Part shown: positions 7,798 to 18,682 of the stretch, piece after piece
Layout: every line of letters begins with the position of its first letter
Numbering within the stretch: the first letter of the stretch is position 1
DNA from: a virus
Strand: one strand, 5' to 3'
Length of the DNA: 24,718 nucleotides
Virus record (IMG/VR): IMGVR_UViG_3300030451_000383
Span: 23,071-47,788 of that record
The notes under the pieces: generated by a model
What the model saw: only the letters and a program-made list of their open reading frames with translations
Told to the model about the DNA's origin: nothing
Databases searched by the model: none
Position numbers and translations under genes: made by a program

Positions 7798-8387
7798 TAA
7801 CTAATTTTAGCTTCTTTAACTAATTTTTCCATAAGTTCGCTTCGAGCATCTTTTGCTTCTTTTTTACTAGCATATCCATCAAGTGTTCCCTCTTCTATTA
7901 AAGGTAATAATTGTGATAAAGCTTCATCTCCATCAATAGCTTCGGCTGTTGTAAAACTAATAGTAGGCAGTATATAATATTTATCTTTATATTTTCCAAC
8001 TTCAGTTATTCTATTCCTAATCATTCTCCATAAACCTTTATCTGTTGCATTTTTAAGTTCTACATTTTCGTTATAAGCCATATTAAATTTAGGTTGAAAA
8101 TAATCCATATATAAATCATCAGTTGATTTTGTTCCTTGATTTAATTTTTTTCTTTTTCTTTTATGAAGTCCATGTTTAGCATGTTGTTTACCTGCTCTAG
8201 TAGCAGCTCGTTTCTTTTTATTAGCTCTTGCTAGTTTTGCTCTACCTTTTTTAGTAGATTTTAATCTTTTTATTTGTTCTTCCGGAGCATAAACTTCTCC
8301 AGTTTCACTAGACTTTTTACCACTAGGAGTTCTCCATTTTTGTTTAGTCCATTTTCTAAGACTTCGTTGTGATTTTCTTAAAGCCAT
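7797..8387 (-). CDS. Basic phage protein with TPSGKKSSETGE motif (DUF5872-like N-terminus)
   Basis: 196 residues in two parts. The first 80 are extremely basic (KWTKQKWRTPSGKKSSETGE, then KKGRAKLARANKKKRAATRA) and resemble the DUF5872-type segment of marine phages and some giant viruses, recalled from memory. The rest is an ordinary globular stretch (residues about 90-196). The basic part suggests DNA or RNA binding, perhaps in the virion. There is no ribosome site before the ATG, but a 23-codon frame overlaps the start and may couple translation. Its stop overlaps the terL start. Confidence 0.75.
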   Translation of the reverse strand: MALRKSQRSLRKWTKQKWRTPSGKKSSETGEVYAPEEQIKRLKSTKKGRAKLARANKKKRAATRAGKQHAKHGLHKRKRKKLNQGTKSTDDLYMDYFQPKFNMAYNENVELKNATDKGLWRMIRNRITEVGKYKDKYYILPTISFTTAEAIDGDEALSQLLPLIEEGTLDGYASKKEAKDARSELMEKLVKEAKIS

Positions 8388-8449
8388 TTTTTTATAAACG
8401 CATGTACTTTATCTAAAAATTTTTGTATGTATTGTAATATTATATTCAT
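8378..8449 (-). CDS. Possible 23-aa amphipathic peptide / coupling ORF
   Basis: A 23-codon frame bridges the stop of the 65-residue gene and the start of the 196-residue gene, overlapping the latter by 10 bases. The product (MNIILQYIQKFLDKVHAFIK and three more residues) would be one amphipathic helix. A GGAGG run lies about 11 bases before the ATG. It may act mainly by bringing ribosomes to the next gene, which lacks its own site. Evidence is limited to position, overlap and the ribosome site. Confidence 0.4.
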   Translation of the reverse strand: MNIILQYIQKFLDKVHAFIKKWL

Positions 8450-8450
8450 T

Positions 8451-8648
8451 TTATTTGTAGCCTCCTCCTTTGGCTTTGTATTGTTTAGCTAACATCTGGG
8501 CTTTTCGAGCAGACCATTGCCCGGGTTTACCTCCTTTAGAACCAGCTTTGATTCTCTCGAAAAGCCTCTTACGCATAGTTGGTTTAGTATAATTACCAGC
8601 TTTATTAACTGTAGACTTTTTCTTAGTCTTTCTTTTTTTTACTACCAT
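8451..8648 (-). CDS. Small very basic phage protein (65 aa)
   Basis: 65 residues, rich in Lys and Arg, starting MVVKKRKTKKKSTVNKAGNY and ending AKQYKAKGGGYK. The core TKPTMRKRLFERIKAGSKGG followed by KPGQWSARKAQMLAKQYKAK matches a small family I recall as common in marine phage structural regions, function unknown. The charge suggests nucleic acid binding. The ribosome site AAAGGAG is 7 bases upstream. The gene overlaps the 57-residue gene before it by 26 bases in another frame. Confidence 0.8.
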   Translation of the reverse strand: MVVKKRKTKKKSTVNKAGNYTKPTMRKRLFERIKAGSKGGKPGQWSARKAQMLAKQYKAKGGGYK

Positions 8649-8796
8649 TTTTTTCTCCTTTCTTAAAAATCATATCCCAGTTTTTGTCAAACTCTTCACG
8701 AGTAACATTTCCGGGTTTACCTTGGTTTCTTCTCATAGACAATCTACCTTTTTGTTTATGAAGTGCTTTAAATTTAAGATTTCCTAAATGTGGCAT
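8623..8796 (-). CDS. Small basic protein (57 aa)
   Basis: 57 residues starting MPHLGNLKFKALHKQKGRLS, with REEFDKNWDMIFKKGE near the end and a Lys-rich tail. It fills the gap between iscU (3 bases upstream) and the 65-residue gene (26-base overlap), so the region has no unused space. A weak GGA lies upstream of the ATG. No family recognised beyond a general likeness to small basic virion-region proteins. The frame is supported by fit with its neighbours rather than by a motif. Confidence 0.6.
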   Translation of the reverse strand: MPHLGNLKFKALHKQKGRLSMRRNQGKPGNVTREEFDKNWDMIFKKGEKNGSKKKKD

Positions 8797-8799
8797 TTT

Positions 8800-9234
8800 T
8801 TACATTCCATTGTGAGGATATAAATAATTATGTCTTCTATGAGTTATTTTTTCTTCCCAGTTTTCTATTGCTTTACGAATACTATCTTCTGCTAGTACAC
8901 TACAATGCAATTTAATTGGTGGTAATTCTAATGCAGAAGCTATGTCTTTATCTTTAATAAGTTTAGCTTCTTCTATAGTTTTACCTTTTAACATATCTAC
9001 AAACATTGTAGAAGATGCGATTGCACTTCCACAGCCATATGTTTTAAATTTGACATCTTCTATAATATTATCTTTTAATTTTATTTGTAGTTTCATAACA
9101 TCACCACATGCAGGAGAACCTGTCATTCCTGTAGCAACATTAGGGTCTTTAGGGTCAAACCTTCCAACAGAATGTTTTGCTGGATTGTTTAAAACACTCT
9201 CAAACCTATCAACTACTTTTTGTGAATATGCCAT
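8800..9234 (-). CDS. iscU: IscU-type Fe-S cluster scaffold protein
   Basis: 144 residues that align along nearly the full length with bacterial IscU. MAYSQKVVDRFE at the start, SPACGDVMKLQIK at 40-52, KFKTYGCGSAIASS at 62-75 and ELPPIKLHCSVLAEDSI at 103-119 are close to E. coli IscU as I recall it. The cluster ligands are present: C43, D45, C68, H110 and C111, as is LPPIK, the HscA chaperone-binding motif (LPPVK in E. coli). IscU holds nascent Fe-S clusters made by the IscS desulfurase and passes them on. About ten residues are inserted near residue 14 and a 15-residue tail is added. No IscS, HscA or ferredoxin is seen nearby, so it would use host partners. It lies in the virion arm between small basic protein genes and starts in a TAATG overlap. 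Confidence 0.95.
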   Translation of the reverse strand: MAYSQKVVDRFESVLNNPAKHSVGRFDPKDPNVATGMTGSPACGDVMKLQIKLKDNIIEDVKFKTYGCGSAIASSTMFVDMLKGKTIEEAKLIKDKDIASALELPPIKLHCSVLAEDSIRKAIENWEEKITHRRHNYLYPHNGM

Positions 9235-9311
9235 TATCTAAATAGTTTCCATACTTTATTTATTCTTCCACACTTCATAAACTTGTGTAGTTTATTAAAT
9301 AATCTTACCAT
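9234..9311 (-). CDS. Possible 25-aa basic peptide coupled to iscU
   Basis: A 25-codon frame starts at the stop of the 96-residue gene and ends in a TAATG overlap with the iscU start. The product begins MVRLFNKLHKFMKCGRINK and is strongly basic and amphipathic. iscU has no clear ribosome site, so this frame could deliver ribosomes to it. The exact head-to-tail overlaps on both sides favour real translation; the function of the peptide is unknown. Confidence 0.5.
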   Translation of the reverse strand: MVRLFNKLHKFMKCGRINKVWKLFR

Positions 9312-9595
9312 TTTACTCTATTTGCCCAATATGCTGCAGACATTACTCCTTTAGCAATATTTTTAGCATGTCTAGCTTTAAAAGACTTTCTTTTCTTTTT
9401 CATTTTACTTGATTCACCTGCTTTAGGTTTACCAGCAGTTTTTGCACCCTGTTGTCCAAATCTAATAGTTTTAATTTTGTCGCCTGATTTAGCAACAACA
9501 ATATGAGATTTAGTAGGATGTCCGGGAGTACGCTTGGGTTTATTAAAACCACTTACTCCTGCTCTTGCGAGTCTTGGGTCTTTCTTTTTAGCCAT
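9305..9595 (-). CDS. Small basic protein, DUF6321-like (96 aa)
   Basis: 96 residues, about a quarter Lys and Arg. The segments LARAGVSGFNKPKRTPGHPT, VVAKSGDKIKTIRFGQQGAK and KKKRKSFKARHAKNIAKGVM followed by SAAYWANRVKW form a pattern I recall as DUF6321, found in marine phages. The Lys/Arg-rich C-terminus suggests binding to nucleic acid, but the role is unknown. The ATG overlaps the stop of the 67-residue gene by one base, so the two are likely coupled. Confidence 0.8.
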   Translation of the reverse strand: MAKKKDPRLARAGVSGFNKPKRTPGHPTKSHIVVAKSGDKIKTIRFGQQGAKTAGKPKAGESSKMKKKRKSFKARHAKNIAKGVMSAAYWANRVKW

Positions 9596-9798
9596 TAGTG
9601 TATTGTCCTTTTATTTTCTGGTTCTACTGTAGTAGGGTAAGAAATATCATCATTAACAACAATATTTTCTAGTTCTCCTACGACAACCAATCCATTCTTA
9701 TTAGCTGCTAACTCAGCTTGTTCTAAAGTTGCAGCAATAATATTTGGTCCTGTATAAACATTACCATATATTTCTAGTTCTGTCAAGTATATCTTCAC
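9595..9798 (-). CDS. Hypothetical protein (67 aa), GTG start
   Basis: 67 residues starting with GTG, which overlaps the TGA of the membrane peptide gene upstream (GTGA). The sequence MKIYLTELEIYGNVYTGPNI and AATLEQAELAANKNGLVVVG suggests a small alpha/beta domain. No cysteines or membrane segment. The overlapping start and lack of a ribosome site point to coupled translation with the upstream peptide. No function recognised. Confidence 0.7.
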   Translation of the reverse strand: MKIYLTELEIYGNVYTGPNIIAATLEQAELAANKNGLVVVGELENIVVNDDISYPTTVEPENKRTIH

Positions 9799-9908
9799 AA
9801 TGAATGAAGTATACCTTTACCTATAATCCAACCGACTAAAAACCAAACACAAAACCATACTGGATGGTCTTGAGCAAACTGCCATATTTCATTCAGATAG
9901 TTCTTCAT
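9795..9908 (-). CDS. Small membrane protein (37 aa)
   Basis: A 37-codon frame starts within the last codons of the small terminase gene and ends in a GTGA overlap with the 67-residue gene. The product has a short polar start (MKNYLNEIWQFAQDHP) and a Trp-rich hydrophobic helix (VWFCVWFLVGWIIGKGI), a typical one-span membrane protein. The tight overlaps on both sides and the hydrophobic core make it a convincing gene despite its size. Possible roles are lysis or membrane modification; none is shown. Confidence 0.65.
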   Translation of the reverse strand: MKNYLNEIWQFAQDHPVWFCVWFLVGWIIGKGILHSL

Positions 9909-10296
9909 AGTCTGTCACATCTATAGTTTCTTTTTCTGGTAGTATAAATATACCACCTTGAACATTATGATTTACATCTAATCGTTCTTTTTTACCTAAA
10001 CCAACTCTGTCAAGTATTGTTTGAGCTGCTTGTAGCTTTACATTAGCTTGAGGTAGTGGTTTATTACTTTCTAATACTTCAACAAGTTTAAAAGCTGCAG
10101 AAGGGGCTTCCTTTGCAAGTACATCAGAGGCTAAATCTACTATTTCATGTTTAAGACTTTTAATTACTTGGTAGTGATTTCCTTGGTAGCCTGCAAGCTC
10201 TGCCGAAAGTTTAAGATTTCCTTTAGTCTCTATAAGACTATTTAGAAATAATTCTTGTTTTTCTGTTAGTTTTCTTTTTGTTGTAGGTAAAGACAT
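9889..10296 (-). CDS. terS: Terminase small subunit
   Basis: 135 residues. An N-terminal helix-turn-helix-like region (LTEKQELFLNSLIETKGNLK, then LSAELAGYQG) is followed by a helical stretch with APSAAFKLVEVLES and NVKLQAAQTILDRVGLGKKE. The latter is a recurrent pattern in small terminase subunits, which recognise the packaging site and load the large subunit. It is the first gene of the leftward arm. The ATG sits six bases after a perfect TATAAT, which places the transcript start on or next to the ATG; there is no Shine-Dalgarno site, so translation is probably leaderless. Confidence 0.8.
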   Translation of the reverse strand: MSLPTTKRKLTEKQELFLNSLIETKGNLKLSAELAGYQGNHYQVIKSLKHEIVDLASDVLAKEAPSAAFKLVEVLESNKPLPQANVKLQAAQTILDRVGLGKKERLDVNHNVQGGIFILPEKETIDVTDYEELSE

Positions 10297-10302
10297 ATAA
10301 AT

Positions 10303-10331
10303 ATTATATACTTAAATGGGGCATTTGTCAA
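10303..10331 (-). promoter_or_regulatory. Consensus sigma-70 promoter of the leftward virion arm
   Basis: On the minus strand TTGACA (10331-10326), a 17-base spacer and TATAAT (10308-10303) match the consensus fully. The expected +1 is near 10296, the A of the small-terminase ATG. It is the only strong promoter seen upstream of the packaging and virion genes, which suggests they are read by host RNA polymerase. Confidence 0.85.
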
Positions 10332-10356
10332 GTATTTAAAATAATTAATAAAAGAC

Positions 10357-10385
10357 TTGACAAAATGCTTTTTAATCTATATAAT
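10357..10385 (+). promoter_or_regulatory. Consensus sigma-70 promoter facing right into the non-coding region
   Basis: TTGACA (10357-10362), a 17-base spacer and TATAAT (10380-10385) match the consensus fully. It is divergent from the left-arm promoter, with the two -35 boxes about 25 bases apart, so one protein bound here could affect both. The transcript would start near 10392 and run into a region with no rightward gene for more than 1 kb. Confidence 0.85.
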
Positions 10386-10448
10386 AAGATTAAGTCTGCC
10401 GGGGGTTAAATACATAACCTATAGAGCTGTCCAGCTCTACTTAGCCCC

Positions 10449-10631
10449 TGTGAAGTTTCCAATTAAAAATAGCACAAAATGTTCGACCAGTACATATATA
10501 TATAGGTAGGGGTGGGGTGGCTCTTGCCCCGTGCCTGACAAACTTTAAAAAGTTTGACAAACTTAACAAATCTCTGCAGAAACCTGTTGGGTAAAGTCTA
10601 TAAAGACTTTAAAGACTTGTGAAGTTTCCAA
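10449..10631 (+). repeat. 14-base direct repeat in the non-coding region
   Basis: TGTGAAGTTTCCAA occurs at 10449-10462 and again at 10618-10631, 169 bases apart. Both copies follow a C/T-rich or hairpin segment. The repeat may be a protein-binding site or part of repeated RNA modules. Confidence 0.7.
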
Positions 10632-10753
10632 GATTTGTAGGGTAAATGTGTCGGCATTTTATAACTATTCTAACTCCAAAGAGTTAAGCAGTCTATAACG
10701 ACATAACAAGGCTTTACAGACCATTTAAGCATAGCTAAATGGTATCCTGTGCA

Positions 10754-10860
10754 GTATGTATTTGAGTTCGTATGAAAGCTCTAAAGAGCTTCGCGTAAAC
10801 TTGATGTGTATGTATTGTTCTCATAGGAAAACTCTAAAGAGTTTCGCAGGAGAATGTGTA
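10754..10860 (+). repeat. Tandem hairpin units with compensatory changes
   Basis: Two similar units, 10754-10810 and 10808-10860, share GTATGTATT, a hairpin with a CTCTAAAGAG core, TTCGC right after it, and a TGTGTA end. The stem is AAGCTCT/AGAGCTT in unit 1 and AAACTCT/AGAGTTT in unit 2, a G-C to A-T exchange that keeps the pair. The flanks also pair differently but in the same place: AGTT/AACT in unit 1 and TTCTC/GAGAA in unit 2. This points to selection for RNA structure. Confidence 0.65.
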
Positions 10861-10864
10861 GGAT

Positions 10865-10890
10865 AAAAAAAACCCCTGTGAATACAGGGG
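10865..10890 (-). terminator. Intrinsic terminator of the leftward 93-aa gene
   Basis: On the minus strand CCCCTGT, a four-base loop and ACAGGGG form a perfect seven-pair GC-rich stem followed by eight T. It lies 25 bases after the stop of the 93-residue gene. In the plus direction the stem is followed by CTTTCAG, so it should stop mainly leftward transcription and keep it out of the hairpin region. Confidence 0.85.
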
Positions 10891-10915
10891 CTTTCAGCTA
10901 GGGAGCTAGGTAGGA

Positions 10916-11197
10916 TTAACCAATGTTTACAAGTTTCTTGTAAGACCTCATTGCTTTCAAATCTGCACTAGGCAAAGCCTTCATGCTTAAGATTTTAGCG
11001 ACTTGACCTTGAGAAAGTGGAGCTTTCTTGTCATTCAATCTTGAGAGGTAATGACCATGAATAGTTCCCCATTTGATGTCCTTTGGACATTTTGGAGAAT
11101 TACTGAACTGCGAAGCAATCTTTCTGACCATTCTGTAGCTTGCTACAGCTTTAGGGTTGTCAACAGTAAACGAAGTTTTAGCATTTGAATTTGCCAT
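10916..11197 (-). CDS. Hypothetical protein (93 aa), monocistronic
   Basis: 93 residues, basic, starting MANSNAKTSFTVDNPKAVAS, with PLSQGQVAKILSMKALPSAD near the C-terminus, which could be a small helix-turn-helix. The gene stands alone: a promoter-like pair lies about 60 bases upstream, AAGGA is 9 bases before the ATG, and a strong terminator follows. Such a unit between the divergent arms often encodes a regulator or an early host-takeover protein, but no family is recognised and the role is inference. Confidence 0.75.
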   Translation of the reverse strand: MANSNAKTSFTVDNPKAVASYRMVRKIASQFSNSPKCPKDIKWGTIHGHYLSRLNDKKAPLSQGQVAKILSMKALPSADLKAMRSYKKLVNIG

Positions 11198-11579
11198 AAT
11201 TTTTTTCCTTGCTCCTTTGGAGCATTTTGCTAGGGCGACATTGCCAAAGCTCTTACATAGTAATCCAGCTAACTCTCATTTGTCAAACTCTTTCTCGTGC
11301 GTGATTGTCACGCGTAGAATAATATTCTTCCTGCGACAACAGGCGAAGAAAGTAAAATCACCAAATTTTCAGTCAAAAAAATCAACGAACAATCGAAATA
11401 TTACACATAAAGCATACATACACCTGTATAAAATTTACAAGCTTGGCAGATATGGGATAGGCTAACTAAATTTTACGCGTAAAACACATAAAATATACAT
11501 ATAAAACGCATAAAGTTTATGTATAAATTTGTATTTACACATCTGCCCATAATTAAAATCTTATACTTGCGTTTCCTAC
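11198..11579. other. AT-rich non-coding region with palindrome and short repeats
   Basis: No convincing gene. It holds the leftward promoter at 11257-11286, a hairpin GCGTGA/TCACGC at 11299-11313, and the perfect 14-base palindrome TTTTACGCGTAAAA at 11471-11484. A partial ACACATAAA at 11403-11411 and two copies of AAAACRCATAAA at 11481-11492 and 11503-11514 occur here; another full copy lies at 12083-12094. These could be operator sites for a phage regulator or replication-initiation repeats. A plus-strand reading frame over 11157-11465 was judged spurious. Confidence 0.5.
11257..11286 (-). promoter_or_regulatory. Promoter of the 93-aa gene
   Basis: On the minus strand TTGACA (11286-11281), an 18-base spacer and TACTAT (11262-11257, four of six matches) precede the 93-residue gene. 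The transcript would have a leader of about 55 bases containing GCTCCAAAGGAGC, a small hairpin just before the ribosome site. Confidence 0.6.
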
Positions 11580-11619
11580 TTGACAACAATTCAACAATCC
11601 GTATAATTGATAGGGCAAT
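11580..11619 (+). promoter_or_regulatory. Early sigma-70 promoter with GGGCAAT start element
   Basis: TTGACA (11580-11585), a 16-base spacer and TATAAT (11602-11607) are followed by GGGCAAT at 11613-11619. The GGGCAAT begins exactly 33 bases after the first base of the -35 box, as in three other promoters of this arm. It should start the message for the 22-residue and 118-residue proteins. Confidence 0.85.
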
Positions 11620-11659
11620 CGGCAATGAGGTCGGTTGCAACATTTTGGAGATTTCGATT

Positions 11660-11728
11660 ATGGAAATTATTTTTGGATTTTTATTTGTTCTTGGCTTCGT
11701 GCTTTATACTTTATGGTTGGTGTCCTAA
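11660..11728 (+). CDS. 22-aa membrane microprotein
   Basis: A 22-codon frame with a GGAG site 9 bases before its ATG. The product is almost entirely hydrophobic (MEIIFGFLFVLGFVLYTLW and three more residues), one membrane helix. Its TAA overlaps the ATG of the next gene (TAATG). It is the first frame after an early consensus promoter, so it would be made at once after infection. It may act in the membrane or mainly as a coupling leader. Confidence 0.6.
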   Translation: MEIIFGFLFVLGFVLYTLWLVS

Positions 11729-12084
11729 TGGAAAATTTAGTTCATGCAATTAGCGAAACTCGTATGAAAAGGCTTTTGAACCCTCAAATGTCTGACCATT
11801 TTTATACAGGTTTCAATGGAAAATATGGCTATCGCTTTTATGAAATAAAGGTTGGTAGAAAATGGGTTTACATGAAAAGTAAAGCACATAAAGTTAGAAT
11901 GCCTTTGGCAAAATTTAAGATTAGAGCTTTTCTGCAATGGCGAAAAGATAGTATGGTTCATGCTTCATGCAAACAATATGAAATCACAGGTAAATATTCC
12001 AGACCTAGAGCATGGTGGAAAGATTACGGATTTACATATAACCCTAAATACTTTGAGTATGACCGAAGCAGATTAGCTTGGTAA
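11728..12084 (+). CDS. Hypothetical early protein (118 aa)
   Basis: 118 residues, basic and rich in aromatic residues (for example GYRFYEIKVGRKWVYMKSKA and SRPRAWWKDYGFTYNPKYFE). No family recognised. I chose the ATG at 11728 because it overlaps the stop of the membrane microprotein; the frame is open further upstream but those codons cover the microprotein. High Lys/Arg and Trp/Tyr content would suit binding to nucleic acid or to a host protein. Confidence 0.75.
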   Translation: MENLVHAISETRMKRLLNPQMSDHFYTGFNGKYGYRFYEIKVGRKWVYMKSKAHKVRMPLAKFKIRAFLQWRKDSMVHASCKQYEITGKYSRPRAWWKDYGFTYNPKYFEYDRSRLAW

Positions 12085-12108
12085 AACACATAAATAATAA
12101 ATTTACAT

Positions 12109-12160
12109 GCCCTGTTCCTCTTGACTTCGCTTCTAGCAACTGTTAGTGTAATGGGGCAAT
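12109..12160 (+). promoter_or_regulatory. Early promoter with GGGCAAT element, weak -10
   Basis: TTGACT (12121-12126), then TAGTGT with 17-base spacing (12144-12149) and GGGCAAT at 12154-12160, again 33 bases from the -35 start. GCCCTG lies upstream of the -35 box at 12109-12114. The first 20 bases are identical to those of the promoter at 12981, so one is a duplicate of the other. The -10 matches only half of the consensus. Confidence 0.6.
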
Positions 12161-12194
12161 TAACCAACTGCCGATTGTGGCAAGGAGAAAAATT

Positions 12195-12416
12195 ATGGCG
12201 ATAGCCGTTGACAAACAAAAAGCTGATGAGCTTGAGTACTACACAGACCTTGAAAGCCTTGAGGTTAGGTTTGATGAAATAAAACATGATGAGTATATGG
12301 ACTGCTCTGATGAAAGTCTTGTAGAACAAGACTACCTAGATACTATGGAGTTCTGTTTAGAACTAGAAGCGAATGAAATTATTGATGATGAACAATTTGA
12401 TTATTTGGAGATATAA
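12195..12416 (+). CDS. Hypothetical acidic early protein (73 aa)
   Basis: 73 residues, strongly acidic (for example DCSDESLVEQDYLDTMEF and EANEIIDDEQFDYLEI). A GTG codon lies in frame at 12177, but GGAG at 12184-12187 points to the ATG at 12195. It is the first gene after the 12121 promoter. Small acidic early phage proteins often mimic DNA or bind host enzymes; no family is recognised here. Confidence 0.75.
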   Translation: MAIAVDKQKADELEYYTDLESLEVRFDEIKHDEYMDCSDESLVEQDYLDTMEFCLELEANEIIDDEQFDYLEI

Positions 12417-12419
12417 ATT

Positions 12420-12698
12420 ATGAAAAAACCTTGCGAAAATCCTAATGGTAAATTTTTGAATGCTGTCATTGAAGATAGTAAACGCAGAAAATCTATAAAA
12501 TTTAACAGTCTTGACAAGGCTAAAAGATACCTTAAATCAAAGAGTTATAGGTTTCGTGAAGCCTACAACCACAAAGAAGAAAGGTGTATGCTTTATTCAA
12601 GCTGGAAATTTGGGTGGGTAAAAGTGTCCTCATGCAAAGATTACCTAAATGACACCACAATGGAACAGGGAACTGTTTGGAAAATAATTAAAATATAG
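12420..12698 (+). CDS. Hypothetical early protein (92 aa)
   Basis: 92 residues, basic, with FNSLDKAKRYLKSKSYRFRE and MLYSSWKFGWVKVSSCKDYL. It begins three bases after the preceding stop, with GGAG about 11 bases upstream. A short alpha/beta fold is likely. No known family or motif recognised. Same transcription unit as its neighbours. Confidence 0.7.
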   Translation: MKKPCENPNGKFLNAVIEDSKRRKSIKFNSLDKAKRYLKSKSYRFREAYNHKEERCMLYSSWKFGWVKVSSCKDYLNDTTMEQGTVWKIIKI

Positions 12699-12707
12699 GA
12701 GTAAACT

Positions 12708-12971
12708 ATGGAAAATGAAATGACATATAAAAAATTTATGCAATTACTACATAAAGTTAGACAAGAAGCTGATACAGTAGAAGAAGCATTTGAAAATACA
12801 GATAAATTATTATATAATATTTTAGATAGAGATGATGTAATTAATTTAGTATTAGAATGTTTAACAATAATAGCTCAAAGCGATATACCTATAGAGATAC
12901 TAGAAAATCCTTATGGTGTATTAGATGTCAAAAAAGAGGATAAAAAACCTGATTTAAAAATCGTGCATTAA
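12708..12971 (+). CDS. Hypothetical early protein (87 aa)
   Basis: 87 residues, mostly helical and acidic, starting MENEMTYKKFMQLLHKVRQE, with the apolar segment VINLVLECLTIIAQSDIPIE. GGAG lies 7 bases before the ATG. It is the last gene before the second copy of the duplicated promoter. No family recognised. Confidence 0.7.
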   Translation: MENEMTYKKFMQLLHKVRQEADTVEEAFENTDKLLYNILDRDDVINLVLECLTIIAQSDIPIEILENPYGVLDVKKEDKKPDLKIVH

Positions 12972-12980
12972 ATATTATAC

Positions 12981-13032
12981 GCCCTGTTCCTCTTGACTTC
13001 CGTTTGGATTTGTGCATAATGGTAGGGGCAAT
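12981..13032 (+). promoter_or_regulatory. Early promoter, duplicate of the one at 12109
   Basis: TTGACT (12993-12998), a 16-base spacer and CATAAT (13015-13020), then GGGCAAT at 13026-13032, 33 bases from the -35 start. GCCCTG is at 12981-12986. Bases 12981-13000 are identical to 12109-12128. It should start the RNA that includes the structured leader and the 102-residue gene. Confidence 0.75.
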
Positions 13033-13148
13033 CAAGCAGGGTAGCTTGGTTCATAACAAAAAAACAGTCCTAAACTGTGGAGTATTTAGGCAGGTCTAAC
13101 GGGAAACTCCCTGATTAAATTGTTTCCCACTTATCTTGGAGATATTTT
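13030..13148 (+). promoter_or_regulatory. Structured 5' leader with possible pseudoknot
   Basis: Three hairpins stand in a row: AATCAAGC/GCTTGGTT at 13030-13051 (one G-U pair), ACAGT/ACTGT at 13064-13078, and GGGAAAC/GTTTCCC at 13101-13128. The loop of the second, CCTAA, is fully complementary to TTAGG at 13086-13090, which would give an H-type pseudoknot or a competing hairpin. The ribosome site GGAG follows the third hairpin. This could control stability or translation of the next gene. Confidence 0.5.
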
Positions 13149-13457
13149 ATGAGAAATTTTATTAAAATAAAACTTATTGAATTACTTGGACTAAAAAATT
13201 TATATGTTGAAGTTCAAGAATTAAGAGGAATGATTGAAGAAGTAGACTACAAAGCTGATGAAATAAAAGATGATTTACAGAATGTAGAATACAGATGTGA
13301 TGAAGTTGAAGCAGAAGCAGAAAGACTGTGCGATAATATTGATGATGAAATGCATAATAAATTTGAACAAGCCTATTCTGAATTACAAGACCAAATTGAG
13401 ACTTTCAACAATATGGTTGAGGGATATACTATAACTGTAAAATTAAATAAGGAGTAA
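13149..13457 (+). CDS. Coiled-coil protein (102 aa)
   Basis: 102 residues. After a short apolar start (MRNFIKIKLIELLGLKNLYV), residues about 20-90 form one long acidic heptad-type helix, for example VDYKADEIKDDLQNVEYRCD and DDEMHNKFEQAYSELQDQIE. GGAG lies about 9 bases upstream, just after the structured leader. It is probably an oligomeric helical protein; function unknown. Confidence 0.75.
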   Translation: MRNFIKIKLIELLGLKNLYVEVQELRGMIEEVDYKADEIKDDLQNVEYRCDEVEAEAERLCDNIDDEMHNKFEQAYSELQDQIETFNNMVEGYTITVKLNKE

Positions 13458-13460
13458 AAC

Positions 13461-13670
13461 ATGGCAGATATAAGTTTTCATGGAGTGACTAAAATAGAAG
13501 TTCTTAAAAGAAAAGATTTGGATAACTTTTCAACTAGAGATATTATTATTCACAATGAGGAATATAATGTTGAATTAAGGCGATATGTACCTACTAAAAC
13601 ATGTATAGAGTTGTTTCTTGATAACAAAGAAGCAAGTAAATTAGTTTATAATAAAAGTAAGTGGAGATAA
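13461..13670 (+). CDS. Hypothetical protein (69 aa)
   Basis: 69 residues, starting MADISFHGVTKIEVLKRKDL, with alternating charged and apolar residues suggesting a small beta-rich fold. It starts three bases after the preceding stop with a GGAG site. No cysteine pattern or membrane segment, and no family recognised. Confidence 0.7.
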   Translation: MADISFHGVTKIEVLKRKDLDNFSTRDIIIHNEEYNVELRRYVPTKTCIELFLDNKEASKLVYNKSKWR

Positions 13671-13672
13671 TT

Positions 13673-13858
13673 ATGATAAAAGTATTTAGAGATAGTGAAA
13701 GTTCTAACAAGTTTTTCTATCACTTTAATCTATTTGGATTGAAGTTTAGAATTGCTACTAACACTAGAGGTTTTAATAAGTATGGAACTTATAAAACTAA
13801 TAGAGGTAGAGTAGTAAACTTCGGTAGAAAATATATGTGCTTTATTCCTATGTTTTGA
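13673..13858 (+). CDS. Hypothetical basic protein (61 aa)
   Basis: 61 residues, basic and aromatic, with FYHFNLFGLKFRIATNTRGF and VVNFGRKYMCFIPMF at the end. The frame is open from a GTG at 13661, but GGAG at 13663-13666 sets the ATG at 13673 as the start, two bases after the previous stop. Unknown function. Confidence 0.7.
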   Translation: MIKVFRDSESSNKFFYHFNLFGLKFRIATNTRGFNKYGTYKTNRGRVVNFGRKYMCFIPMF

Positions 13859-13976
13859 AGTGCATAGTCATCAGCAATCAGGAGTATGACTTTAAAGAAG
13901 CTAGAGCTGATAGTAGTTGGCAGACCTGCTTAAAAAACTGCCATTATATTAACAGCTATACATACAGGAGATTATT
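13859..13976 (+). promoter_or_regulatory. Structured intergenic leader with long hairpin
   Basis: No gene in these 118 bases. AGTCAT/ATGACT pair at 13866-13891. A longer imperfect hairpin spans 13905-13957: AGCTG pairs with CAGCT at the base and TGGCAG with CTGCCA near the loop, with partial pairing between. It ends close to the ribosome site (AGGAG) of the 144-residue gene. It may be an RNA processing or translation-control element; no promoter is seen here. Confidence 0.5.
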
Positions 13977-14411
13977 ATGGCAAAACCAATGAGAATATGT
14001 GACCAAGATTTAATTATAAATAAGGTCGTGAAAAGTGTAGAAGATGTAAGAAGAGAAGCTTATGAGAAAGATATTAAATCTCAACCAGAGTGGAAACAGT
14101 TTCTTGCTGAAACTACAAAACATCAAAAAGAATTTGACAGAATTGAAAAGCTTAAAAGTGAATTAAATTCTGCAAGAGATAGCCTTGAAGAAAGAATTAA
14201 AAAGTTTAATAAACAACAAGGTTTTACAGGGTATAACGAGGGTATATGCTATGAAAACTATCACAGAGGTAGACCTAGTATACATATAAATACTACTAGT
14301 TTAGATTGGGAAATTCGACAAGAAATTACTGAAGAAGTAAGATTTTCAGGTATGTCTGGAGATTTTGATGCTAGACAAATGGTTGAAGATTTAGTAGCAA
14401 AGTTTAGTTAA
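13977..14411 (+). CDS. Hypothetical protein (144 aa)
   Basis: 144 residues. The first half is charged and helical (for example KEFDRIEKLKSELNSARDSL), probably coiled coil. The second half, from KKFNKQQGFTGYNEGICYEN to MVEDLVAKFS, looks like a small folded domain. AGGAG lies 8 bases before the ATG. It is the last gene before the strongest promoter of the arm. No family recognised. Confidence 0.75.
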   Translation: MAKPMRICDQDLIINKVVKSVEDVRREAYEKDIKSQPEWKQFLAETTKHQKEFDRIEKLKSELNSARDSLEERIKKFNKQQGFTGYNEGICYENYHRGRPSIHINTTSLDWEIRQEITEEVRFSGMSGDFDARQMVEDLVAKFS

Positions 14412-14419
14412 ACTTTGAC

Positions 14420-14459
14420 TTGACAACGCCCTGCTGTTCGGTTATAATGGCAGGGCAAT
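14420..14459 (+). promoter_or_regulatory. Perfect sigma-70 promoter with GGGCAAT element and inverted repeat
   Basis: TTGACA (14420-14425), a 17-base spacer and TATAAT (14443-14448), all twelve bases matching. GGGCAAT follows at 14453-14459, 33 bases from the -35 start. GCCCTG (14428-14433) and CAGGGC (14451-14456) are inverted copies on either side of the -10 box and could be a repressor site or a strand-opening hairpin. It drives the 92-residue gene and probably several after it. Confidence 0.9.
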
Positions 14460-14481
14460 TCACAACAACAAGGAGATATAA

Positions 14482-14760
14482 ATGACACACAATGACTTAA
14501 AAAAAGGTATGAGAGTTCAGCTAACACCTATACCTACTCTTTCAAGCCAACCTAGATTGGCTACTATCATGGATAACATGAAAGGTATAACTAGAATGGT
14601 TAAAATAGAAGATAAAAATGGATATTTACCAGATATGGGTAGTGTATATGTTAGTGAAATAGAATATGTTTTGTTTCCAGATGATATGCCAGAAAAACTA
14701 GAAGTATCAAAAGCACATCAAAAGAAATTAGATTTATTAACACAAATACATTGGGGGTAA
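14482..14760 (+). CDS. Conserved-looking phage protein (92 aa)
   Basis: 92 residues starting MTHNDLKKGMRVQLTPIPTL, with RLATIMDNMKGITRMVKIED and MGSVYVSEIEYVLFPDD. The Lys-Gly-Met-Arg-Val start and short strands look like a small barrel, and I recall similar small proteins in marine phages, function unknown. AAGGAG is 6-7 bases before the ATG. It is the first gene after the perfect promoter, so strong early expression is expected. Confidence 0.75.
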   Translation: MTHNDLKKGMRVQLTPIPTLSSQPRLATIMDNMKGITRMVKIEDKNGYLPDMGSVYVSEIEYVLFPDDMPEKLEVSKAHQKKLDLLTQIHWG

Positions 14761-14762
14761 AC

Positions 14763-14996
14763 ATGATAGATATACATAGAGAAGTTGTAGAAATATTTGA
14801 TGATAAAATAGAAAATATTACTAAATATAATGGTCAAATATTTGAACTTACAGGGTCAAAAGAAAATAATATTGGTGGATATTATGGAGGTGGACATGGA
14901 GATATTATTAAATATCTTGAAGAAAATAAATTAGATACAGAACAATTACAAGATGTATTATTAGCTCTTGTAAGAGGTTTAAGGGGGCATGTATGA
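14763..14996 (+). CDS. Hypothetical protein (77 aa)
   Basis: 77 residues starting MIDIHREVVEIFDDKIENIT, with a Gly-rich middle (NNIGGYYGGGHGDIIKY) and a helical end. The ATG lies two bases after the preceding stop, with a G-rich ribosome site (GGGGG) overlapping the end of the previous gene. It ends in an ATGA overlap with the next gene. Unknown function. Confidence 0.65.
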   Translation: MIDIHREVVEIFDDKIENITKYNGQIFELTGSKENNIGGYYGGGHGDIIKYLEENKLDTEQLQDVLLALVRGLRGHV

Positions 14997-15190
14997 CATA
15001 TTGGGTAGATGAATTTCATAAACAAACTATGGATAAAGCTAAAAAAGATTTAGAAATACTATACAAAGCAAAGAGTATTATTATAAATAGAATAAATTAT
15101 AATGATGAAAAGTGTGCTTTTTTAGAACTACAATGCAGTAGTGATAAACTTAACAAGTGCATAGAAATAATAGAAGATGAATTACATTAG
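14993..15190 (+). CDS. Hypothetical helical protein (65 aa)
   Basis: 65 residues, charged, probably two helices (FHKQTMDKAKKDLEILYKAK and CSSDKLNKCIEIIEDELH). It starts in an ATGA overlap with the previous gene, so it is probably coupled to it. No motif recognised. GP88-like follows eight bases later. Confidence 0.65.
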   Translation: MTYWVDEFHKQTMDKAKKDLEILYKAKSIIINRINYNDEKCAFLELQCSSDKLNKCIEIIEDELH

Positions 15191-15198
15191 GAGATACT

Positions 15199-15906
15199 AT
15201 GGCTTATAAATTATTAACATTAAATAATCCAAAGATATTAAAAGGTAAAGATGTAGATGATACATACATCAGTTGTGTTATGCATTTCAGACCTATCAAT
15301 ACCAAGATATGTCCATTTCAAGATATAGCTTCTTGTAAAACTGCATGTCTAAATACTGCAGGGCGTGGTGGTATCATCAAAAAAGGAGAAACTACCAATA
15401 GAATACAAGAAGCTAGACAGCGTAGAACTGATATGTTTCTTAATGATTATGAAAACTTTATGGAACTATTGCATACAGAGATTACAAAGTTTTGTAATTA
15501 TTGTTATAAGAAAGACAAAAAACCTGCTGTAAGATTGAATGGCACAAGTGATATACAATGGGAACACAAACTATACAAAGATAAAAATATATTTGAACAC
15601 TTCCCAGATGTGCAATTCTATGACTATACCAAGATACCTACAAGAAAAGTATCACAATACAAAAACTATCATTTGACATGGTCATACTCTGAAGCTAATC
15701 CAAAATATACAGCATGGTATGATAAGATAGCATATAATATTGCAGTAGTATTCAACGGAGCTTTCCCTATATATTTCAAGGGTAGAGAAGTAATCAATGG
15801 CGATGAAAGTGATTTAAGATTTTTAGATAAACAAAATGTTATTGTTGGTCTAAAAGCAAAGGGCAAGGCACGACATGATATGTCAGGCTTTGTCATACAC
15901 ATTTAA
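15199..15906 (+). CDS. GP88-like cysteine-rich phage protein
   Basis: 235 residues. CPFQDIASCKTACLNTAGRG (C38, C46, C50) followed by Gly, together with CNYC at 99-102 and VRLNGTSDIQWE at 111-122, match the pattern I recall for phage 'gene product 88' proteins (Pfam GP88). Function in that family is unknown. The clustered cysteines (also C26) could bind zinc or an Fe-S cluster; this is inference. The strand-helix rhythm and FPDVQFYDYTK suit a barrel-like fold. The ribosome site is GGAG, 7 bases upstream. A structured 180-base gap follows the gene. Confidence 0.75.
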   Translation: MAYKLLTLNNPKILKGKDVDDTYISCVMHFRPINTKICPFQDIASCKTACLNTAGRGGIIKKGETTNRIQEARQRRTDMFLNDYENFMELLHTEITKFCNYCYKKDKKPAVRLNGTSDIQWEHKLYKDKNIFEHFPDVQFYDYTKIPTRKVSQYKNYHLTWSYSEANPKYTAWYDKIAYNIAVVFNGAFPIYFKGREVINGDESDLRFLDKQNVIVGLKAKGKARHDMSGFVIHI

Positions 15907-16084
15907 TGTGTTTACAAGGGCAGAAATACACGAAGAAACAAACTTTAAATAAGTTTCCTAGTGTGAGTAGTCTGAAAGGGATAGCAATATCTGATTAGTG
16001 CAAAGGGTCTGACACTTTGTTAATGAGTAGCTCTCAAACTATGTGGCTACCTGTCCTTTTAAGCATTTTATATAAGGAGATATT
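15907..16084 (+). promoter_or_regulatory. Multi-branched structured leader
   Basis: No gene in this 178-base gap. AAGGGCAG (15916-15923) and CTGTCCTT (16051-16058) can close the whole segment with eight pairs, one of them G-U. Inside are AAACTT/AAGTTT at 15940-15956 within ACAC/GTGT (15928-15964), GATA-GCAA-TATC with a GNRA-type loop at 15980-15991, CAAAG/CTTTG at 16001-16019, and GTAGC/GCTAC at 16027-16050, which stacks directly on the closing stem. This looks like an RNA junction fold. AAGGAG and the next ATG follow outside it. No known riboswitch recognised. Confidence 0.55.
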
Positions 16085-16246
16085 ATGAATGAACAAATAA
16101 AAACATTACTAGAAGATATTAAAAATACACTTGAACACATTGTAGCAAGTGAAGAATGGGAAACTTTAAAAGAAAGGTCTAGTGCTGATGTATTAGCTGA
16201 GCAAATAGATTGGGTATTAGAAAGAAATATTAAAGACAAATTTTAA
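16085..16246 (+). CDS. Hypothetical small protein (53 aa)
   Basis: 53 residues, acidic and helical, starting MNEQIKTLLEDIKNTLEHIV and ending DWVLERNIKDKF. AAGGAG lies 7 bases before the ATG, after the structured leader, which supports real expression. No family recognised. Confidence 0.65.
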   Translation: MNEQIKTLLEDIKNTLEHIVASEEWETLKERSSADVLAEQIDWVLERNIKDKF

Positions 16247-16258
16247 TAAGGAGATAAT

Positions 16259-16432
16259 ATGAAGTGGTGGCAAAAACAACAACCAAACAGCAAGGATTTA
16301 CCATTAAAAATGTATGTGAATGGCGAGTATCATGCTACATTTAACGATATACTTACACTTGATTTTGTTAAATCAGAATTTGAAAGTGCAGGATATACTA
16401 TAGAACTAAAAGGAGATAACAATGAAACTTAA
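16259..16432 (+). CDS. Hypothetical small protein (57 aa)
   Basis: 57 residues starting MKWWQKQQPNSKDLPLKMYV, with VNGEYHATFNDILTLDFVKS, probably a short strand-turn-helix unit. AAGGAG lies about 7 bases before the ATG. It overlaps the next gene by 11 bases, and its final codons contain that gene's ribosome site (AAAGGAG). Confidence 0.6.
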   Translation: MKWWQKQQPNSKDLPLKMYVNGEYHATFNDILTLDFVKSEFESAGYTIELKGDNNET

Positions 16433-16625
16433 ACAAGTAATAGAAATACAAAAAGTATTAGGCAAAACAATACCTGTTGACATGGCAGAGAAATGGGTGT
16501 ATCATAGTGAAAGTCGTGGGGAATGGGTAGACATCATGGAACTAGATGTAATCCATGCGATTAGAATATTAAGAAAACATATTGTAGATATTGAACAAGC
16601 AGAAATGGAGGAACATAATGGATAG
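16422..16625 (+). CDS. Hypothetical protein (67 aa)
   Basis: 67 residues starting MKLKQVIEIQKVLGKTIPVD, helical, with WVYHSESRGEWVDIMELDVI and a Glu-rich end. AAAGGAG lies 7 bases before the ATG. It overlaps both neighbours by about 8-11 bases. Unknown function. Confidence 0.65.
   Translation: MKLKQVIEIQKVLGKTIPVDMAEKWVYHSESRGEWVDIMELDVIHAIRILRKHIVDIEQAEMEEHNG
16477..16505 (+). promoter_or_regulatory. Candidate internal sigma-70 promoter
   Basis: TTGACA (16477-16482), a 17-base spacer and TATCAT (16500-16505), eleven of twelve matches, inside the 67-residue gene. It could feed the following small genes. It lacks the GGGCAAT element and lies in coding sequence, so it may be chance. Confidence 0.35.
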
Positions 16626-16839
16626 ATATAGAGTAGAATTATCATTAAATGTTTGGTCTGATACTGACAAAGGAGCAGTAAAAGTTGCACAAGATATTTG
16701 TGATAAACAAAAAGAAAAGTTTGATAATAGATGTGAGATTATCAAAGTATGTAGTAGTCCCTTTGGTAGAGTAGAGGGAGAAGATATTGTTGCTAAAGTT
16801 TATAGACAGGAGGTATTCAATGAGCAACCAACACAATAG
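16618..16839 (+). CDS. Hypothetical protein (73 aa)
   Basis: 73 residues starting MDRYRVELSLNVWSDTDKGA, with KVAQDICDKQKEKFDNRCEI, a strand-helix-strand pattern. The frame is open upstream of the ATG, but GGAGG just before 16618 fixes the start. It overlaps the previous gene by 8 bases and the next by 20. Unknown function. Confidence 0.65.
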   Translation: MDRYRVELSLNVWSDTDKGAVKVAQDICDKQKEKFDNRCEIIKVCSSPFGRVEGEDIVAKVYRQEVFNEQPTQ

Positions 16840-17011
16840 AAAAGAATTTGAAAAGATAATGCAGGAAGTAGAACAGCTAGACCAAGAGGGTATGCTTGAG
16901 GCAGATATACAAACTGTATCTCAAGTCTATGGATTGCATGAAGATGATGATAGAGATGATATATTATTCTTTATTGCAGAAAGTTTATACGAACATGGGG
17001 TGGTAGAATGA
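16820..17011 (+). CDS. Hypothetical acidic protein (63 aa)
   Basis: 63 residues, acidic and helical, starting MSNQHNRKEFEKIMQEVEQL, with HEDDDRDDILFFIAESLYEH. AGGAGG lies about 7 bases before the ATG at 16820, which rules out the longer frame upstream. It ends in an ATGA overlap with the next gene. Unknown function. Confidence 0.65.
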   Translation: MSNQHNRKEFEKIMQEVEQLDQEGMLEADIQTVSQVYGLHEDDDRDDILFFIAESLYEHGVVE

Positions 17012-17202
17012 CACAATATAAAGATAAAGTTGAAGCACAAAGAAAAAAACTAGAACAAGAAAAATTAGATAACTCAATTACATCTATAGATTGCAGGTAT
17101 GAAAATGGTAAATGGACAAAGATGATTACTTGTTATGGTAATGGTAAACAAGTCACAGAATATAACGATAAAAGAAAAAAGGATAAGATAGAATGGCGAT
17201 AA
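17008..17202 (+). CDS. Hypothetical basic protein (64 aa)
   Basis: 64 residues: a basic helix (KDKVEAQRKKLEQEKLDNSI) followed by strands (DCRYENGKWTKMITCYGNGK). It starts in an ATGA overlap with the preceding gene and overlaps the next by 10 bases. No motif recognised. Confidence 0.65.
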   Translation: MTQYKDKVEAQRKKLEQEKLDNSITSIDCRYENGKWTKMITCYGNGKQVTEYNDKRKKDKIEWR

Positions 17203-17351
17203 GAAAAAAAGTAATACAAAGTATTGACCATGTTAAAAAGGTCACATCACAAGGTACAGGTGGGCGTAGTAGAAAGATTAAAATATCTACAGCTCACATG
17301 AATAAAAATAAAAGAAGAAGTTATAAAGCATATAGAGGGCAAGGAAGATGA
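17193..17351 (+). CDS. Small basic protein (52 aa) with KNKRRSYKAYRGQGR tail
   Basis: 52 residues, about 35 percent Lys and Arg. The end, STAHMNKNKRRSYKAYRGQG followed by Arg, is a pattern I recall in small proteins of marine phages. The charge and Gly-rich loop (TSQGTGGRSRK) suggest RNA or DNA binding. It overlaps both neighbours by a few bases (ATGA with the next). Function unknown. Confidence 0.7.
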   Translation: MAIRKKVIQSIDHVKKVTSQGTGGRSRKIKISTAHMNKNKRRSYKAYRGQGR

Positions 17352-17518
17352 GAGTATTAATTAAATCATACGGAGATGTGAGAATTTTTTATGATAAAAT
17401 TTTTTGTTATAAAAGATATCATGTTTTATGGGAGGGCGAAAATAAACTTGAAACCTATTCAGGTTTATGGTATAATGAAAAACAAGTAATTAAATTAGTG
17501 GAGGATAGATTGCTATGA
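17348..17518 (+). CDS. Hypothetical small protein (56 aa)
   Basis: 56 residues starting MRVLIKSYGDVRIFYDKIFC, aromatic and basic, with SGLWYNEKQVIKLVEDRLL at the end. It is linked to both neighbours by ATGA overlaps, so it is part of a coupled chain. A TTGAAA/TATAAT pair within it is discussed under rejected items. Unknown function. Confidence 0.6.
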   Translation: MRVLIKSYGDVRIFYDKIFCYKRYHVLWEGENKLETYSGLWYNEKQVIKLVEDRLL

Positions 17519-18006
17519 ATATATTTTATTTTTATGATAGTCCAGTAGAAAGTGCGATAGCACAACCTGATAAGATGTTAGTAAAAATGCCATTGGAAAC
17601 AGCACAAATGTTATGCACAGCACATAGAGAAATAGATGGCGATGAGTATGCTGATAAGGTAGGACTATACAAAAGAGCTTATTGGAATCATCCATGTACT
17701 ATATGGGCAAGAGAATCTAAATTAAATTATCTTTGGTTGTATACACACTTCCTAGCTTTAGGTAGCGAGTATAAATTTAGATATGGTAGAGAACATGCAA
17801 GTATAACTAAATTAAAAGAACCTTTAAGAAAGATACCAAACATTACTAAAAAGAGTATGACACCACCTGCACAAGCTATGCCTGATGAGTACAAAAATGA
17901 TGACCCTATCAAAGCATACAGAGATTATTGTACCCATGAAAAACACTACGCTAAATGGGAAAAGGGTAGAGCTAAACCTGATTGGTGGACATTGGAGGTC
18001 GCATGA
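17515..18006 (+). CDS. Conserved phage protein of unknown function (163 aa)
   Basis: 163 residues. KMLVKMPLETAQMLCTAHRE, GLYKRAYWNHPCTIWARES, YTHFLALGSEYKFRYG and QAMPDEYKNDDPIKAYRDYC make a distinctive series of blocks that I recall from a family widespread in phages of several hosts, with no established function. The spacing of His, Cys, Arg and Trp in WNHPCTIWARES looks like an active or binding site, but no reaction can be named. GGAGG lies upstream. It precedes the replication genes, so a DNA-related role is plausible. Confidence 0.8.
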   Translation: MNIFYFYDSPVESAIAQPDKMLVKMPLETAQMLCTAHREIDGDEYADKVGLYKRAYWNHPCTIWARESKLNYLWLYTHFLALGSEYKFRYGREHASITKLKEPLRKIPNITKKSMTPPAQAMPDEYKNDDPIKAYRDYCTHEKHYAKWEKGRAKPDWWTLEVA

Positions 18007-18227
18007 AAGCTACACTAACACGAAAAGAATATAAAGAGTTTAATACTTATGTTGATTTTTTAAATGCAAAACATGGTATAAGTATACCCCATACTGTTGA
18101 AAAGATTGGGGATAAGTTTCTAGTAGAAATGCTAGAGGATATTGATGTAAATAAATTAGATAATTTACTTGACATTGATGTTGATTTGTTGTATAATGCA
18201 ACACAAACAAACGCCAAAAGGAGGTAA
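18003..18227 (+). CDS. Hypothetical protein (74 aa)
   Basis: 74 residues starting MKATLTRKEYKEFNTYVDFL, acidic towards the end (EDIDVNKLDNLLDIDVDLLY). The ATG at 18003 overlaps the previous stop (ATGA) and has GGAGG upstream. Its last third contains a perfect promoter for the SSB-like gene. Unknown function. Confidence 0.65.
   Translation: MKATLTRKEYKEFNTYVDFLNAKHGISIPHTVEKIGDKFLVEMLEDIDVNKLDNLLDIDVDLLYNATQTNAKRR
18169..18197 (+). promoter_or_regulatory. Perfect sigma-70 promoter before the SSB-like gene
   Basis: TTGACA (18169-18174), a 17-base spacer and TATAAT (18192-18197), all twelve bases matching, ending about 30 bases before the SSB-like start. It lies in the end of the 74-residue gene and lacks the GGGCAAT element of the early promoters. 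It would raise SSB and the replication genes. Confidence 0.7.
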
Positions 18228-18229
18228 TT

Positions 18230-18682
18230 ATGGCAGTAATAGAAGGAAAAGCTTACTGGGCTTCAGTAACTACACCAAACACTACTTTTGAACCTGTGTA
18301 TACAGTAGATTTAGTTGTGAATGATGAGGTTGCAAATGATTTTGAGGCTCGTGGCTTTAGAGTAAAAGACTTATCCATAAAGGATGAGCAAGGAGCTTCA
18401 ACAGGTGTTGGAAGAGCCTTAACTATTAAACGAAAAGTAAATGGTCCGAATGGCATGGTCAGAAACGCACCTAAACTTTTCGATAAAAATAAAAATCTCA
18501 TGGATGAAGTAGTTGGGAATGGTTCAACTGTTAAAGTCCAATATAATGAGTGGGAAACTGAAAACAAATTTGGAACATTTAAAGGTTTGGATTTCCAAGC
18601 TATGCAAGTGTTAGATTTAGTTCCTTTAAAATCTCAAGATGGCTCAGAGCTAGACCCTTATGGGGATGGCGAGGAGTTTTAA
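18230..18682 (+). CDS. Single-stranded DNA-binding protein, T7 gp2.5-like
   Basis: 150 residues. GKAYWASVTTPNTTFEPVYT at the start, VGRALTIKRKVNGPNG in the middle, and GSTVKVQYNEWETENKFGTF suit an OB fold. The tail DPYGDGEEF is acidic and ends in Phe, like T7 gp2.5, whose tail binds polymerase and helicase; this is family knowledge. It would coat single strands during replication and recombination. GGAGG precedes the ATG and a perfect promoter lies just upstream. The call rests on position, size, strand pattern and tail. Confidence 0.75.
   Translation: MAVIEGKAYWASVTTPNTTFEPVYTVDLVVNDEVANDFEARGFRVKDLSIKDEQGASTGVGRALTIKRKVNGPNGMVRNAPKLFDKNKNLMDEVVGNGSTVKVQYNEWETENKFGTFKGLDFQAMQVLDLVPLKSQDGSELDPYGDGEEF

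Follow-up and report, generated by a model that had tools for sequence, protein, structure and literature searches.

Four plus-strand promoters of a marine phage, P1 to P4, carry the short element GGGCAAT at one and the same place: counted from the T that opens the TTGACA or TTGACT hexamer, it starts exactly 33 bases downstream in all four; given a 17-base spacer, the element would span about -2 to +5, over the predicted transcription start. They lie in a stretch of 24,718 nucleotides (hereafter the window) that corresponds to positions 23071-47788 of the 53.9 kb IMG/VR viral record IMGVR_UViG_3300030451_000383. In the reading that we prefer, and to which we give an even chance, GGGCAAT is the initially transcribed segment of sigma-70 early promoters read by the host, kept for a function in promoter escape or in the leader and spread as exchangeable cassettes. 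This reading builds on the observed position of the element, its recurrence and conservation profile in relatives, the swapping of promoter cores and the mobility of P4; that transcription starts here, that a host sigma factor is involved and that the element acts in escape or in the leader are deduced from these.

GGGCAAT in the promoters of the window

The -35 and TATAAT-like -10 boxes of P1-P4 (Table 1) stand 16 or 17 bases apart, within the 16-18 of sigma-70-type promoters, the -10 box of P2 being a poor one; poorly conserved -10 boxes have been reported for the sigma-70 of Sinorhizobium (PMC3616915). The sequence-only reading had placed GGGCAAT 33 bases from the -35 boxes at 11580, 12121, 12993 and 14420, and it stands there in 4/4 cases: the arrangement TTGAC-N27..29-GGGCAAT occurs four times in the window, whereas 1000 approximate dinucleotide shuffles had 0.001 on average and never more than 1. 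About 1.9 copies of GGGCAAT as such are expected in the window by chance. The whole record holds eight, of which the four on the plus strand are those of P1-P4; none of the four minus-strand copies in the 53.9 kb has a TTGAC within 45 bases upstream. The shuffles and the record-wide count together rule out a chance origin of the arrangement. The TATAAT that belonged to the pattern as first proposed is present at 11580 and 14420; 12993 has CATAAT and 12121 has TAGTGT.

In the mechanism that we propose, the host RNA polymerase would read P1-P4 as sigma-70-type promoters and transcribe operons of small early-side genes in a genome of pelagiphage type. The early mRNAs would have GGGCAAT as their conserved 5' end; next would come a leader rich in CAAC, in some cases with a hairpin, and after it the ribosome-binding site. 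This start-site tag would be kept because promoter escape depends on the bases transcribed first, which also provide the mRNAs with a defined leader. The promoters would be paralogous cassettes made of an upstream block with the -35 box, a core, and the tag with its leader, and these parts would swap between copies and between phages, so that each lineage ends up with a common start sequence of its own.

Recurrence and conservation in related phages

Relatives were collected from TerL relatives and from pattern matches; among the matches listed there were 48 TTGAC/GGGCAAT instances, of which 41 distinct copies were kept. A looser pattern scan of viral contigs returned mostly unrelated sequences among the matches listed, and only contigs recurring elsewhere were used. 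Seven instances (L052 +, L207, L210, L212, L214, L215 and L219) were taken by eye for other sites and left out, L052 + wrongly, as it belongs to the divergent promoter of the GGGCAAT family; several of the seven are a promoter reading into a GGGCAAT...ATTGCCC terminator. Other marine viral contigs, namely L207:7878 (-), L212, L214 and L210 as well as L093, L104 and L150, have a promoter that leads immediately into a terminator: at its +33 position begins a hairpin of terminator type, GGGCAATC...GATTGCCC (or GGTTGCCC), with a T-run.

The scan of the genome and its relatives called for by the sequence-only reading thus gave four promoters in the record and, with the relatives, the 41 copies, which support a promoter family with the element at the expected transcript start. 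Its fixed distance holds exactly within the window; over the 41 copies the element starts at 33 (29 copies), 34 (8) or 32 (4), so that "exactly 33" is no strict rule. The copies also have in common a block just 5' of the -35 box (TTYC.C) and CAACAA after the element.

Orthologues of the P1 gene were chosen by protein, which avoids selecting by the element itself. All 18 loci have the promoter, with GGGCAAT in 14/18 and GGGCAAAT in 4/18; two of the loci, L248 and L250, belong to one contig of 55743 bases, which has near its two ends two differing P1 genes, each behind its own promoter, one with GGGCAAT and one with GGGCAAAT. In a conservation profile of 15 distinct P1 promoters (duplicates merged, the GGCATT copy of L019 included as L283), mean identity is 0.71 over the 12 bases upstream, 0.55 in the spacer, 0.65 in the -10 box and 0.48 between the -10 box and the element; it reaches 0.85 in the element, a figure partly set by the search pattern, and 0.82 over the next 12 bases, which were not used in selection. 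The spacer, the -10 box and the bases before the tag vary and the tag with the next 12 bases does so little; the conserved part thus starts at about the predicted RNA start and extends past GGGCAAT into the leader. The earlier suggestion that the element is selected among unlike spacers is supported by the identities of 0.55 and 0.85.

CAAC occurs 22 times in 40 leaders picked by rule (6.1 in shuffles) and 21 times at 161 other gene starts (12.1 in shuffles); these shuffles preserve base counts, not dinucleotides, and a hand-picked set of 24 leaders was not used for the figures. Judged by these counts, a CAAC-rich leader is a looser trait common to these promoters.

The divergent minus-strand promoter M (Table 1) has the tag in shifted form. 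Among 30 distinct upstream regions of M relatives, some of which may be displaced where the protein match starts past the first residue, GGCAAT or GGGCAAT stands 33-35 bases after TTGAC in 11/30 (GGCAAT at 35 or GGGCAAT at 33), GGCAATG stands at 40-41 in 5/30, the window among them, and nothing fitting is seen in 14/30. The presence of GGCAAT/GGGCAAT at this divergent promoter indicates that the tag follows transcription and not one strand.

A scan of genomes (one per species, 84,980 species) gave 17 scattered GGGCAAT-promoter matches in unrelated taxa and no family, which rules out a host-derived promoter family. Stretches of HTVC103P and HTVC115P have one and two GGGCAAT, with no common start among the 4 and 3 promoter-like sites listed by the filter, and a nucleotide search of phage records gave no match.

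Exchange of promoter parts

Among 440 pairs of promoters with equal spacing, nine have leaders at least 90% identical but cores at most 55% identical, and three have cores at least 85% alike but leaders at most 50% alike. At P2, L110 and L121 agree in 14/14 upstream and 20/20 leader bases with 41% identity in the core; L024 and L208 have 100% identity in the core and 20% in the leader. Of 22 orthologues of the P4 gene, 9 have the P4 promoter, set in two upstream contexts, and 13 lack it; the promoter also precedes two further genes, in L286 and L298, which makes three different genes in all. On the strength of these core and leader swaps and of the mobility of P4 we term the promoters cassettes, which arose either by recombination between copies or by replacement from other phages. 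As relatives keep the tag and swap other parts, the tag looks like a selected 5' message end travelling with movable cassettes.

The same exchanges bear on an explanation without any special function, in which the promoters are young duplicates whose TTGAC and GGGCAAT blocks are kept alike by repeated recombination between copies. The clear exchanges have their joints at these very blocks, P4 is mobile, and P2 and P3 of the window have 20 bases in common, GCCCTGTTCCTCTTGACTTC (the upstream block, the -35 box and three more bases), yet their cores match different orthologues. However, orthologous P1 promoters have lost much of their spacer similarity and still keep tag and leader, an outcome that drift after duplication would not give, and the tag changes of L019, set inside otherwise orthologous leaders, would require a very short tract for gene conversion; we consider this explanation improbable.

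Other start sequences and the case for a regulator

Other lineages have other sequences at the same place. In L019 the same three gene families stand behind promoters with the tags GGCATT (P1), GGGCATT (P2) and GGCATCA (P3); L016 has GCAACATCAACTAAC at two promoters, L017 has CCATTCAAC and CCATCAAC, and CTCAACAA or CTCCAACAA stands at three promoters of L035 and L036. Lineages thus differ in their start sequences and the promoters of one genome tend to agree, though not strictly: L024 and L029 combine GGGCAAAT at P1 with GGGCAAT at their other promoters. Since orthologous genes of L016, L017 and L019 have other start sequences, GGGCAAT as such is dispensable. A reiterative start with GGG at +1 is weakened by sister tags without GGG.

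The sequence-only reading had offered a start-site code, a regulator's binding site or a shared 5' end of the messages, and had taken absence of the pattern from close relatives with the same genes as refuting it. L019, L016 and L017 partly provide such an absence, which speaks against a universal start-site code; a shared 5' end is the best fit, given that the sequence becomes more conserved at the element and stays so in the leader. Also improbable in our view is a lineage-specific start code in the bases transcribed first, which a phage factor would read in trans, either at the promoter or at the 5' end. If it were true, a phage could distinguish its early transcripts from host ones and from those of competing phages, the code would shift in step across the promoters of one genome, as in L019, and mobile cassettes such as P4 would import codes elsewhere.

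A phage or host regulator could instead bind GGGCAAT as an operator over the start and shut off or tune the early promoters jointly, which we regard as unlikely. The fixed place of the element over the predicted start would suit such a regulator, and so would L019, where P1 and P2 show the same A-to-T change and P3 is altered as well within flanking leaders that are still orthologous, which looks like co-evolution with a factor. Over the 41 copies, the complementarity between each promoter's own left and right sides is 186 against 170.3 in permutations that ignore relatedness (1/1000 as high); it is weaker when the left half is confined to the spacer (33/1000). There is also a dyad of 7 bp at P4, of which a compensatory version exists: the 7 bp match in 8/9 distinct cores, with CTGC/GCAG and CTAC/GTAG forms (pairs read by eye). 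Its left half lies upstream of the predicted start, so that the dyad would act in DNA, except in transcripts that run on from P3, and a regulator at P4 is a fair idea. The element itself, however, is no palindrome, and the longest dyad run at P1-P3 of the window is 4, with nothing like the dyad of P4; two start sequences stand side by side in one genome, conservation continues into the leader, and no regulator was identified.

RNA structure of the leaders

Among P1-type leaders, the P3 of the window included, the fold at the 5' end beats shuffled sequences in 9/11 cases (at most 5/300 shuffles as low). In P3-type leaders, small stems precede the ribosome-binding site, but each by itself falls short of significance (11 to 122 of 300 shuffles as low). 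The leaders of P2 and P4 are almost unstructured. Of the alignments used, A3 holds 8/12 sequences (without L252, L029, L248 and the P3 of the window) and A4 holds 8 of the 14 sequences of A1, trimmed, plus L204.

These structures, and the conservation of tag and leader next to untranscribed bases that are not conserved, would fit an RNA element in which a phage or host protein or RNase recognises a 5' GGGCAAU and alters the stability or translation of early messages. The 5'-terminal hairpins of P1 and P3 and the small stems of relatives speak for it; leader lengths and structures vary between promoters, however, and neither a match to an RNA family nor a candidate binder was found, which leaves it quite unlikely. 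GGGCAAT as a general hairpin arm is ruled out, being unpaired at P4 and mostly so at P2.

Several observations count against the promoter-escape and leader reading that we prefer. The identity of 0.85 in the element is partly by construction, its allowed forms having been fixed by a regular expression that 19/19 loci fitted, and the predicted +1 is taken from spacing. P4 with GGGCAAT stands beside promoters with GCAACATCAAC in L286, L287 and L289-L291, and promoters of the same genes in L016, L017 and L019 have different start sequences. Covariation in the P1 stem is not significant, and the P3-type stems jointly rest on one compensatory pair (95.6% of cells paired; 7/500 shuffles as high). 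The element lies in a stem at P1, is unpaired at P4 and is mostly unpaired at P2, so no common RNA structure explains it.

Comparison with known phage elements

Strong sigma-70 early promoters of the T5 N25 type are likewise near-consensus host promoters at which the first transcribed bases matter, the initial transcribed sequence modulating escape at N25 (PMC12464699). Unlike there, one start sequence is here common to four promoters of one genome and to relatives.

The PeSL cassettes of T4-like phages (PMC4503421; Arbiol 2010, Comeau 2014) are also repeated early-promoter cassettes among small, shuffled genes, with the same promoter before different genes and present or absent at one junction (PMC4503421). 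An early promoter between genes and the shuffling of a cassette with genes (P4) are found here too. Unlike in PeSL, titled composite promoter-terminator motifs of T4-like myoviruses (PMC4503421), the repeated block of the window includes a start-site tag. None of the five terminator-like sites in 8000-18000 falls at P1-P4, the nearest starting at 11210, and the phage is not T4-like, its DNA polymerase being closest to those of HTVC115P-type pelagiphages (52.7%); P1-P4 work in part like PeSL cassettes, but as these two features are absent we do not class them there.

The Start Associated Sequences (SAS) of cluster K mycobacteriophages resemble GGGCAAT as short asymmetric repeats that precede many unrelated genes at a constant position and almost always in the same orientation, with clade-specific consensus versions of the SAS extended sequences (PMC3203893). 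GGGCAAT marks the predicted transcription start and precedes the start codon by 29 bases at P4 and by 41 at P2, whereas the SAS lie at the ribosome-binding site and contain AGGAG (PMC3203893). Phage stoperators and repressor operators, mentioned in the same paper (PMC3203893), are repeated asymmetric sites in a phage genome as well; unlike for stoperators, there is no convincing GGGCAAT site away from promoters, and no repressor was identified. The open literature searched held no description of a GGGCAAT promoter family and little on transcription control in these marine phages.

Genomic setting

The DNA polymerase of the phage best matches those of the pelagiphages HTVC115P, HTVC103P and HTVC104P (51-53%, with the HTVC115P type on top). 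Outside the window, the record encodes CsgG, FecR, Hsp20 and an adenylate/guanylate cyclase domain, and a curli region of such a type has been described in uncultured podovirus pelagiphages (PMC9599517). The pelagiphage-like polymerase and the curli-type gene region therefore make a SAR11-like host likely. Cyclase, Hsp20 and FecR-like genes occur as similar, non-identical copies at both record ends (L221:3-2090, L223:3409-6178), which reflect either a genuine duplication or two strains joined in the assembly. Replication genes lie on the plus strand and structural genes on the minus strand; P1-P4 stand at the start of the plus-strand early region, amid small genes without clear family.

Table 1. 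Promoters, GGGCAAT copies and predicted hairpins in the window (positions of the window)
Feature	Position	Strand	Basis
Promoter M of the 93-amino-acid gene (10916-11197, -): TTGACA, TACTAT, shifted GGCAATG 41 bases after TTGACA	11240..11286	-	
P1 core: TTGACA, 16-base spacer, TATAAT	11580..11607	+	sequence
P1 GGGCAAT, predicted at about -2 to +5	11613..11619	+	sequence and orthologues
P1 leader hairpin, predicted 5'-terminal; includes GCAAT of the element	11615..11638 (11615-11623 with 11630-11638)	+	-13.1 kcal/mol; 1/300 shuffles as low
P2 core: TTGACT, 17-base spacer, TAGTGT (poor -10)	12121..12149	+	sequence
P2 GGGCAAT, then TAACCAAC	12154..12160	+	sequence
P2 possible small hairpin TGCC-GATTGT-GGCA, just 5' of the ribosome-binding site	12169..12182	+	75/300 shuffles as low, not significant alone
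P3 core: TTGACT, 16-base spacer, CATAAT	12993..13020	+	sequence
P3 GGGCAAT	13026..13032	+	sequence
P3 leader hairpin, predicted, near the 5' end	13030..13051	+	0/300 shuffles as low
P4 core: TTGACA, 17-base spacer, TATAAT; cassette, present or absent before one gene in relatives	14420..14448	+	
P4 dyad GCCCTGC-N15-GCAGGGC around the -10 box; right half overlaps GGGC of the element	14428..14456	+	
P4 GGGCAAT, then TCACAACAAC	14453..14459	+	sequence

Between P1 and a 118-amino-acid gene, an open reading frame for a 22-residue hydrophobic leader (11660-11728) ends directly at the start of that gene; it is missing in L246, where P1 runs straight into the gene. Three further consensus promoters of the window are without GGGCAAT. 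The first, a perfect TTGACA-17-TATAAT at 10357, points into about 500 bases where no gene is obvious, and it is found again with its first bases (TTAAGTG...GCCGGGGTT) in many TerL relatives; the stretch 10357-10900 is rich in short inverted repeats, includes a stem resembling a terminator (10868-10895), gave no match in an Rfam search and is possibly a non-coding RNA. A second perfect consensus promoter (10303-10331, -) stands back to back with it and faces the packaging genes. The third (18169-18230) lies upstream of a Gp2.5-like gene (single-stranded DNA-binding) and has a CA-rich leader, GCAACACAAACAAACGCC, in a layout that recurs in relatives.

Significance

A start-site tag that is more conserved than the -10 box offers a cheap means of finding early promoters in uncultured genomes, and it provides a case in which selection on the bases transcribed first can be tested. 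As the precise swaps of cores and the mobility of P4 show, phages exchange promoter parts as modules.

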